Assembly: GCF_013372265.1 (NCBI RefSeq)
Contig: NZ_CP054051.1
Location: forward strand, 694,263-758,262
Length of the DNA: 64,000 nucleotides
Direction of reading: 5' to 3'
Source: Aliarcobacter cibarius
GTDB taxonomy: Bacteria > Campylobacterota > Campylobacteria > Campylobacterales > Arcobacteraceae
Part shown: positions 32,530-36,136 of the stretch, in pieces
Layout: each line of letters opens with the position of its first letter
How positions within the stretch are numbered: position 1 is the first letter of the stretch
Notes under the pieces: model-generated
Seen by the model: the letters and a program-made list of their open reading frames with translations, nothing else
Told to the model about the DNA's origin: nothing
Database searches by the model: none
Position numbers and translations under genes: made by a program

Positions 32530-32606
<77 letters not shown>

Positions 32607-32957: not shown

Positions 32958-33034
<77 letters not shown>

Positions 33035-33237: not shown

Positions 33238-33960
33238 ATGCCTTCTATAGAGTTAGTTTTACCTGAAAAATTGCTATTTATATTTTCTAATATTTCTTTA
33301 ATATCTTTTTGTTTTTTTATTAGTTTTATCTTTTCTAAATTATTCAAAAGTTTTTTTGTATTTTTTTTAACTTTATTTCTACTTTTTTCATTTTTTTATG
33401 GTGATATTATACTTAAGCATACAGTCAGAACTTACTATATTTTGTTTAAAATGGATAGCAAAATTCTAATTAGTGCTCAAAAAAATTTAAGTGGAAAAAT
33501 AGATAGTCTAGATATAACTGAAGTTTATTCATACCCTTTGATGAATTCATCAAATTTTAATTTAAAAGATAGGTATAATATCTCAATAACTCACCAAAAA
33601 TATATTGATAAGTTTATAGATATAGGTACATATTCAACACGTTTTAATAGATATGTTTATGGTATTGAAAGAGTTTACTTAAATGGTAATAGTAAAACTT
33701 TAGATGAAAAACCTAGATATGAAATTACGAAAAAGTTTACAACATCATTTTTTGATACAATTTATTCTAAAGAAGAGTTTTTATTTAGAGACAAACTTAA
33801 TAATATCGTTATAGCAACAGCTTTTAAAATAAATTTTAAGCTAAGTAAGGAGAGTTTTAGAAACAAACATCTTTTCTGGAGTTTAGAAAAGGAAGAGGAG
33901 TTTAATCCAAAACCTATTCAAAATTTTGATAATATTTATAAAAAACTATTTATTAATTAA
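33238..33960 (+). CDS. Hypothetical membrane protein
   Basis: 240 residues, not recognised. Two hydrophobic segments (about 10-33 and 38-56) make a short hairpin in the membrane; the remaining 180 residues should lie on one side and are rich in Tyr, Phe and Lys, without Cys pairs or known motifs. The ATG has only a weak ribosome site (AAGTGG). It converges on the next gene with a 4-bp overlap at the stops. It sits just beyond the tRNA cluster, a common place for accessory genes. Confidence 0.6.
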   Translation: MPSIELVLPEKLLFIFSNISLISFCFFISFIFSKLFKSFFVFFLTLFLLFSFFYGDIILKHTVRTYYILFKMDSKILISAQKNLSGKIDSLDITEVYSYPLMNSSNFNLKDRYNISITHQKYIDKFIDIGTYSTRFNRYVYGIERVYLNGNSKTLDEKPRYEITKKFTTSFFDTIYSKEEFLFRDKLNNIVIATAFKINFKLSKESFRNKHLFWSLEKEEEFNPKPIQNFDNIYKKLFIN

Positions 33961-34280
33961 ATGAAACTTCCTAATTCATCACCTAGGTATTCATCAATTT
34001 TTTTTACTAAATCTTCAAATGATTTTTCACCTTGTCTATTAAATACTACAATTTCTTCACCAAAATTATTTTGAATAAAATGTTCTTTTTTTATAACTTC
34101 ATTGTATAATTTTTGGAGTTCTTCTTCACTTTCGTCTTTGTTAAATAAAAACCAATTACAAGTAGTATCTTCAACTCTTAATAAACCATAAGTCTTATCT
34201 TTATCTATATAATCTTGAATTGTTCCATTTTCAAATCTAGCTCCAACTACCATATCATCTTCGTTTAAAATCATCTCCAT
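33957..34280 (-). CDS. Hypothetical small acidic protein
   Basis: 107 residues, not recognised; soluble, strongly acidic, no membrane segment. It begins MEMILNEDDMVVGARFENGT and has one Cys. The ATG follows a plausible ribosome site (AAAGGTTAG). It is transcribed against the membrane-protein gene and away from the radical SAM gene. Ordinary codon use for this genome supports it being real. Confidence 0.6.
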   Translation of the reverse strand: MEMILNEDDMVVGARFENGTIQDYIDKDKTYGLLRVEDTTCNWFLFNKDESEEELQKLYNEVIKKEHFIQNNFGEEIVVFNRQGEKSFEDLVKKIDEYLGDELGSFI

Positions 34281-34381
34281 ATGTCTAACCTTTAATTTTT
34301 TGGCAATTATATTTAAACTATTTTTAGTAATCGATTATTTTGCTATAGTTGGTTACAATTCTGAAAAAATAAGGAATAGAT

Positions 34382-35257
34382 ATAAAAAAATTTAAGAAAG
34401 TTCATATAGAACTTACAAATATTTGTAATTTAAAATGTACCTTTTGTCCACCTAAATTGATGCCAAATAAAATTATGGATTTGGATACTTTTGATAGATT
34501 AAATTTTGAGTTAAAAAATTTTACAAATGAGCTAGCATATCATATTGTAGGAGATCCTTTAGTTCTTACAAATTTGGAAGAGTATCTAAATATTAGTTTA
34601 AAACATGGATTAAAAGTAAATATTACGACTACAGCAAATAATATAAATGTCAAACACTATAAGGCTTTGTTAAATCCAGCAATTAAGCAAATTAATTTTT
34701 CTTTAAATTCCTACAATGCTAATTCACATAAAAAAAGTTTTGAAGAGTATTTAAATCCAATTTTAGATTTTGTAAAGTTTGCACAAGAAAATAAACATGA
34801 ATATTTTATAAATTTTAGAATTTGGAATTTAGATAATGAAAAAACAGCATTTGATTTTAATAGTAAAACTTTTGATAAATTAAATAGTTTTTTTGATTCA
34901 AAATTAAATATTAATGAGATTTATGAGACAAAACCAAAAAATATAAGAGTAGATAGAAAAATATTTATAAATTTTGATGAATATTTCAGTTGGCCAAGTT
35001 TGAAAAATGAAGTTGTTAGTTTAAAAGGTTTTTGTTATGGATTGAGTTCACATTTTGGTATTTTAGCAAATGGAACAGTAGTTCCTTGTTGTTTGGATTT
35101 AGATGCAAATATAAATCTTGGAAATATACATGAATTTTCAATAGAAAAAATTTTAGAGAGTCCTAAAGCTAAACAAATGATACAGGGATTTAAAAACAAT
35201 ATTTTAATTGAGGAACTTTGTCAAAAATGTGATTATAGAAAAAGATTCGATTTTTAA
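34382..35257 (+). CDS. Radical SAM/SPASM protein, apparent AUA start
   Basis: The radical SAM motif CNLKCTFC (Cys 15, 19 and 22 of this call) lies upstream of every ATG, GTG or TTG in the frame; the first usual start (34457) would remove it. In frame, after a stop at 34370-34372, only ATA codons (34376, 34382) could start, and AAGGA sits 6 nt before the one at 34382. I therefore call 291 residues beginning at 34382. The C-terminal part has a SPASM-type Cys set (GFCYGLS, VPCCLDLD, ELCQKCDYR) binding extra Fe-S clusters. Such proteins modify peptides or small molecules; the substrate is unknown. Confidence 0.8.
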   Translation: MKKFKKVHIELTNICNLKCTFCPPKLMPNKIMDLDTFDRLNFELKNFTNELAYHIVGDPLVLTNLEEYLNISLKHGLKVNITTTANNINVKHYKALLNPAIKQINFSLNSYNANSHKKSFEEYLNPILDFVKFAQENKHEYFINFRIWNLDNEKTAFDFNSKTFDKLNSFFDSKLNINEIYETKPKNIRVDRKIFINFDEYFSWPSLKNEVVSLKGFCYGLSSHFGILANGTVVPCCLDLDANINLGNIHEFSIEKILESPKAKQMIQGFKNNILIEELCQKCDYRKRFDF

Positions 35258-35302: not shown

Positions 35303-36136
35303 ATGAATGAAATAGAAATTTTAAAAAGAAGTATAAGAGATTTTTTTAGTTCTTCAATGCTAAAAATTGCATTGGTACCTTTAATTGTTACAATGATAGT
35401 TTTATATGCGCTATTTTTTGGTTTTGCTAGTTTTGGAATAGATGCTTTAAAAACAGTTGCTGAAACTTCTCAAAATGGAGGAGAAGTTATAATTGATGAA
35501 AATGCACCATTTTATTTTGTTTGGCTCACATACTTGATTGTATTTTTATTTAAATACTCTATTACTTCATGGTTGGCAGGGTTTTTATTGTATACTGTGG
35601 GTGTCGTTTTTATATTTCATCTTAGTGTTATTTTAACTTTAATAATAATTGGTTTTTTAACACCTTTTGTTGTAAATTATCTTAAGAAAACACATTATAA
35701 TAGTTTGAATTTAAAGCCATATGGAACTGTTTTAGGTGCTTTTTGGGTCCTTACTAAGTCATTATTTATAATGATACTTTTATATATATTGTTAGTTCCT
35801 TTATACTTTATTCCTTTGGTAAATTTGATAGCTCTTTATTTACCTTTGTATTATTTTTTCCATAAACTTTTAAATTATGATGTATCATCTACAATTTTAA
35901 GTAACGAAGAATATAAAATAATTTATTCAAAAAATTCTAACTCATTTAGAATTAGAACATTTTTTCTTTATTTTATATCTACGGTTCCATTTTTTACACT
36001 TTTTATAGCAATATTTTACGTAATTTATTTATCTCATGCTTATTTTATGGAACTTGAAAAAATCCAAAAAGTAGAAATTAATACAAATGAAAAAGATAAC
36101 AATCTTAGACAAATAGATTATAAAGAGAGTTTGTAA
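35303..36136 (+). CDS. EI24/CysZ-like membrane protein
   Basis: 277 residues with about six hydrophobic segments, and the N-terminal LKRSIRDFFSSSMLKIALVP plus ILTLIIIGFLTPFVVNYL typical of the EI24 domain. In E. coli the related CysZ is a sulfate transporter; most homologues in this phylum are uncharacterised. The charged tail ends cytoplasmic. It is 2 bp before the IMPase-like gene, which suggests co-transcription. A phosphatase related to CysQ lying next to a CysZ-like protein is suggestive of sulfur or phosphate handling, but that is inference. Confidence 0.75.
   Translation: MNEIEILKRSIRDFFSSSMLKIALVPLIVTMIVLYALFFGFASFGIDALKTVAETSQNGGEVIIDENAPFYFVWLTYLIVFLFKYSITSWLAGFLLYTVGVVFIFHLSVILTLIIIGFLTPFVVNYLKKTHYNSLNLKPYGTVLGAFWVLTKSLFIMILLYILLVPLYFIPLVNLIALYLPLYYFFHKLLNYDVSSTILSNEEYKIIYSKNSNSFRIRTFFLYFISTVPFFTLFIAIFYVIYLSHAYFMELEKIQKVEINTNEKDNNLRQIDYKESL

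Follow-up and report, generated by a model that had tools for sequence, protein, structure and literature searches.

A radical SAM gene of the Arcobacteraceae probably starts at a conserved AUA, AUU or AUC codon that would limit its translation

To our knowledge, bacterial starts at AUA, AUU or AUC (collectively AUH) that have experimental support are few, and AUH codons form the class that is rejected by initiation factor 3 (IF3). The described cases of non-canonical initiation differ in codon and in control. In E. coli, infC starts with AUU and is autoregulated by its product IF3 (PMC5472188), and an AUU start is also named for pcnB in the title of the report by Binns and Masters (cited in PMC13009471). 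Streptomyces sigR has a GTC start that is repressed by IF3, the codon being GTC in 32 of 34 genomes and GTT in 2 of 34 (PMC5472188). In S. aureus, AUA and AUU starts yield about 10% of the output of AUG, and that of ccpN is medium-dependent (PMC13009471).

We analysed a 64-kb stretch of DNA from Aliarcobacter cibarius (hereafter the window), which belongs to a single-contig genome of 2.34 Mb (G000:C1:694263-758262) and carries a radical SAM gene on its forward strand (34382-35257, +). At the beginning of this gene, positions 34370-34384 read TAA GGA ATA GAT ATA, and the frame then continues with AAA AAA TTT. The frame is closed by a TAA stop (34370-34372, +) that lies four codons ahead of the ATA at 34382-34384 (+), and an AAGGA Shine-Dalgarno (SD) sequence (34371-34375, +) precedes this ATA by 6 nt, with a duplex energy of -5.1 kcal/mol. 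There is no ATG, GTG or TTG in the window frame ahead of the CxxxCxxC motif, and no canonical start fits the conserved N-terminus; the frame offers its first canonical start only at codon 26, a TTG (34457-34459, +) past the cysteines C15, C19 and C22. An earlier sequence-only reading of the window had placed the motif upstream of every canonical start and had judged AAGGA to be correctly spaced for ATA 34382. Both observations hold, and relatives keep the SD core, its distance to the start being 5-8 nt in nearly all of the 69 AUH loci compared. The same reading had named the ATA codons after the stop as start candidates, which stands for ATA 34382, as this codon is conserved together with its SD, but not for the second ATA at 34376, which sits directly against the SD and is not kept by relatives.

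The product, 291 aa with the stop codon at 35255-35257, was assigned as a radical SAM enzyme with a SPASM/twitch-type C-terminal domain on the basis of Pfam, a structural model and a match to BtrN. Pfam places Radical_SAM (PF04055) at residues 9-140 (E 3e-10; 40.8 bits against a cut-off of 29.5) and SPASM (PF13186) at residues 218-284 (E 2e-14; 53.8 bits against a cut-off of 21.5), and no NCBIfam equivalog cut-off was reached by the protein. C15, C19 and C22 of the CxxxCxxC motif are invariant among 35 aligned homologues; C218, G231, C236, C280 and C283 are likewise invariant in the homologue alignment and fit the CX(n)GX4C and CX2C patterns of the SPASM/twitch subgroup. Every cysteine needed for a radical SAM cluster and, by analogy with BtrN, a single auxiliary cluster is invariant. 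An AlphaFold model built from 35 homologues has a mean pLDDT of 92.8, and by both profile and fold the nearest solved structure is BtrN, a twitch-type radical SAM dehydrogenase, followed by DesII, anSME and SuiB. BtrN (PDB 4m7t, 4m7s) is the top sequence-profile match (E 8e-19) and the top fold match (Foldseek E 2e-11), and as in BtrN the cysteine pattern is compatible with one auxiliary cluster. However, identity in the structural alignment is only 16%, the likeness being one of profile and fold match, and unlike BtrN the protein is encoded without a surrounding butirosin-type cluster.

These cysteines bear on the question of whether translation begins further downstream, at TTG 34457 or another codon, to give a shorter protein. 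TTG 34457, the first canonical codon of the frame, would be chosen by automatic gene calling, but a start there would remove the three invariant cluster cysteines and the first beta strand, and codons 2-26 are under strong purifying selection (see below). Because TTG 34457 lies downstream of the cluster cysteines, it is not the real start, and we regard initiation at any downstream codon as extremely improbable.

The gene is present in 31 of 31 genomes of the genus with 70-82% identity, and in a first comparison of these homologues (29 read, one of which was masked) the codon aligned with ATA 34382 was ATA, ATT or ATC in all 28 that were readable. Across 91 loci of the family, which the named records among them identify as Arcobacteraceae, the aligned codon is ATA in 48, ATT in 20, ATC in 3 and ATG in one, the last belonging to another clade; the remaining family loci fall mostly into clades in which the N-terminus differs in length by one residue, in either direction, and the start, ATG or GTG, adjoins the aligned codon. 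No ATG, GTG or TTG occurs from the upstream stop through codon 14 in 49 of the 71 AUH loci. The most restricted cases are L026, L027, L033-L035 and L070, where just one codon lies between the upstream stop and the AUH codon; since this intervening codon varies (GTT, AGC, AAC, AGT, ACT), these loci have no other possible start. Outside the family, members of the order nearly all start with ATG, GTG or TTG, and Bacillota homologues with about 40% identity carry ATG, GTG or TTG exactly at the aligned codon. Comparison of this codon in related genomes, which the sequence-only reading had proposed as a check, thus yields AUH in 71 of 91 family loci, and the homologues point to the same codon.

The earlier reading had also offered a mutation from ATG to ATA that silenced the gene in this strain, and a mere sequencing error at this base would have the same appearance. 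Nothing besides the missing canonical start in this genome speaks for either, and both are refuted, because the codon is conserved over many genera and pN/pS is about 0.1. The AUH codons of the 28 genus homologues and of the wider family come from independent assemblies, with the frame intact and constrained, and we accord these two explanations practically no probability. With AUA, AUU or AUC retained at this position in about 70 related species, the odd start is evidently an old, maintained feature and not a mutation or sequencing error.

Two side observations concern starts elsewhere in the alignment. The Bacillota homologues (L166-L192) often use TTG or GTG starts. In L071, L072 and L036 (g20, g3) the likeliest starts are likewise AUC or AUA, and L071 and L072, which stand outside the main AUH clade, may represent an independent or older case.

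Substitution patterns place the onset of coding at the same codon. In 69 AUH loci, codons 2-26 show a pS of 0.585 and a pN of 0.065 (pN/pS 0.11), whereas pN/pS is 0.94 over the ten codons before the AUH codon, and coding constraint therefore begins at the AUH codon. Avoidance of G at third bases was tried as a neutral test and was uninformative, as G makes up only 4.3% of fourfold sites. For the same reason the lack of ATG would by itself be weak evidence, because AT richness may contribute to it. The position of the start, its conservation, the onset of coding and the association with an SD can all be read from the aligned sequences. Given this conserved position and SD, the alignment of canonical starts of homologues with the same codon and the sharp onset of constraint, the earlier proposal of AUA initiation at 34382 is strongly supported.

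The region upstream of the start was also considered with regard to a further explanation, namely that the AUH codon encodes an isoleucine inside the protein and that translation arrives from an unusual codon upstream or by frameshift from an upstream frame. Consistent with this, ATA is the commonest and ATC the rarest codon at the start position, as they are at the internal isoleucine codons of the gene. However, many species have a stop a short way upstream, some of them with a single unconserved codon in between, the upstream codons show no constraint, and canonical-start homologues begin at the very same codon. In addition, a putative -10-like box, TACAAT (34354-34359, +), would place the transcription start near 34366, and most of the genus and several other genera have TACAAT, TATAAT or TAAAAT at 28-35 nt ahead of the start. 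Such a promoter would leave a leader of roughly 16-20 nt without a canonical start codon. An upstream start or frameshift was rejected on account of the close stops, the unconstrained upstream codons and the short leader, and we consider an internal isoleucine very improbable.

A comparison of 464 kb of the window's genome with 400 kb of a second genome (G011), comprising 227 non-overlapping ortholog pairs, indicated how uncommon this arrangement is. Only in the radical SAM gene did a long stretch conserved as protein clearly precede all canonical starts; it spans 25-31 codons and has many synonymous differences, with a pS of 0.58 and a pN of 0.03. The other entries, as judged from their listing, resembled rRNA-derived frames, stretches shared with the gene upstream, or short runs of codons ahead of a conserved ATG. 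Among the titles and abstracts of the literature searched, there was no report of an AUA start in Arcobacter or of non-canonical starts with radical SAM genes, and those on radical SAM in Arcobacter butzleri made no mention of such a start.

A tree of 126 proteins, from which the first three codons were excluded, groups the AUH rows, four ambiguous ones aside, into one clade of 74 rows, of which three are canonical and one is masked. The canonical starts inside this clade belong to two lineages, L038/L039 with ATG one codon upstream and L056 with TTG. On the tree, AUA, AUU and AUC must have replaced one another about 12 times, with the four ambiguous rows counted in. These patterns are best explained by a weak start that has been retained since an ancestor of most Arcobacteraceae genera.

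The strength of the SD sequence differs between the two kinds of start. Leaving aside L071-L073 and L108, which were excluded because their start is ambiguous, the mean SD duplex energy is -4.8 kcal/mol in 70 AUH loci, resembling the mean of -4.5 kcal/mol for other genes of the genome (based on rough starts). By contrast, it is -1.95 kcal/mol in 50 canonical-start homologues, and in the 16 of these that belong to the same family it is -0.2 kcal/mol, with the SD nearly absent. A rank test on the energies, which ignores relatedness, gave p about 1e-8. The reverted lineages are likewise without an SD, at +2.0 kcal/mol for L038/L039 (ATG) and -1.8 kcal/mol for L056 (TTG). This distribution suggests selection for low initiation output, which would be reached either with an SD and a bad codon or with a good codon and no SD. 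The trade-off rests on few independent events, because only two lineages inside the clade reverted, and the SD difference may partly reflect that an AUH codon needs an SD to work.

Several neighbouring genes were recorded. Directly downstream lies a gene for an EI24/CysZ-family membrane protein (35303-36136, +; PF07264, E 2e-19). Nearly every locus of the AUH clade has it in this place; it was not found behind canonical-start homologues outside the clade, where some of the stretches examined were short. Since both are characters of the clade and some stretches were short, we count this association as one coincidence and not as a test. On the other side, a conserved divergent ORF of 107 aa (33957-34280, -) is 56-81% identical in relatives and often adjoins the radical SAM gene, and an ORF of 240 aa (33238-33960, +) is found in the same place in several relatives; neither has a Pfam match. 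Just upstream, a tRNA cluster contains two identical initiator-like tRNA-Met genes (32530-32606 and 32958-33034). A special initiator tRNA was rejected as a candidate: the window's CAU tRNAs look ordinary, and nothing ties the initiator-like copies to the gene.

Taking these comparisons together, we propose that initiator tRNA probably starts translation at AUA, AUU or AUC under guidance of the SD and that this arrangement acts as a conserved limiter of translation. In the window, AAGGA would position the ribosome at AUA 34382, where fMet-tRNA would start translation. Because the third base of AUA mismatches the CAU anticodon, initiation would be inefficient and open to rejection by IF3, and the weak start would cap the amount of enzyme made. 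The low initiation rate would itself be the selected trait, realised by SD and AUH in this clade and by AUG without SD elsewhere in the family. Initiation with fMet, low output, IF3 sensitivity and a benefit of enzyme scarcity are what we infer from the alignments, and IF3 sensitivity at AUA 34382 is a reasonable expectation.

A role for IF3 could go further than this. The AUH start might be a regulatory switch through which the level or activity of IF3, varying with growth rate, cold or stress, tunes the enzyme, as for infC and possibly ccpN. In its favour, AUA, AUU and AUC, the codon class that IF3 rejects, interchange while AUG is missing from the aligned start codon of the clade, and precedents exist in the IF3 control demonstrated for the non-canonical sigR start and in the medium-dependent efficiency of the ccpN AUA. 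Against this, the SD disappeared in the lineages where ATG or TTG had returned, which would be expected if selection acts on output and not on codon class, and other clades of the family manage without AUH. The trade-off between SD and start codon thus points more to a simple expression cap than to IF3 sensitivity, and a switch remains a tentative and rather unlikely reading. Somewhat less likely again is the stronger form, in which the radical SAM enzyme would be a read-out of initiation fidelity, that is of IF3 activity, in Arcobacteraceae and would be made only under relaxed start-codon stringency; if true, IF3-fidelity wiring would exist outside translation-factor genes, kept across many genera and acting on an Fe-S enzyme. 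By comparison, autoregulation by IF3, with which the sequence-only reading had linked AUA initiation, is wrong in this wording, since the gene is a different one from infC, whose own start in this family is TTG. The infC of the window's genome lies elsewhere (G000:C1:2094424), and in the infC loci of the family (L193-L222) the start is TTG in essentially all that were read, after a conserved SD-bearing leader, and never ATG or AUH, unlike in E. coli and S. aureus.

As gene callers normally take ATG, GTG and TTG as the only starts, the radical SAM gene would be miscalled or truncated past its catalytic motif. At the same time, this one gene offers dozens of species in which AUA, AUU and AUC are exchanged, a switch from canonical starts that can be placed on the tree and two reversions that lost the SD, and whether low rate or IF3 control is the reason for non-canonical starts is therefore testable with reporters. 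The same ortholog comparison could reveal further such genes in any clade.

Relative to the described systems, the locus is like S. aureus ccpN (AUA) and cvfC1 (AUU) in that an AUA or AUU start is conserved and accompanied by an SD (PMC13009471). Those Bacillota genes carry extended start-proximal SD motifs (PMC13009471), whereas the SD here (AAGGA/AAAGG) is ordinary for the genome, and unlike them the present gene encodes an enzyme, belongs to the phylum Campylobacterota and swaps AUA, AUU and AUC across many genera. With Streptomyces sigR it shares a non-canonical start conserved over a bacterial group and its place at the head of a short, operon-like pair in which the second gene has a start of its own (PMC5472188). 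The codon class differs, GTY in sigR and AUH here, and for sigR both repression by IF3 and misregulation upon introduction of a canonical start were shown by experiment (PMC5472188), while our case is built on sequence comparison. As in E. coli infC and in pcnB, the latter as far as its title and citation convey, an AUH start would limit translation, but unlike infC the gene encodes no translation factor, and infC itself takes TTG in this family. The radical SAM gene of the Arcobacteraceae thereby adds to the known group of genes with non-canonical starts that comprises infC, pcnB, sigR and ccpN.
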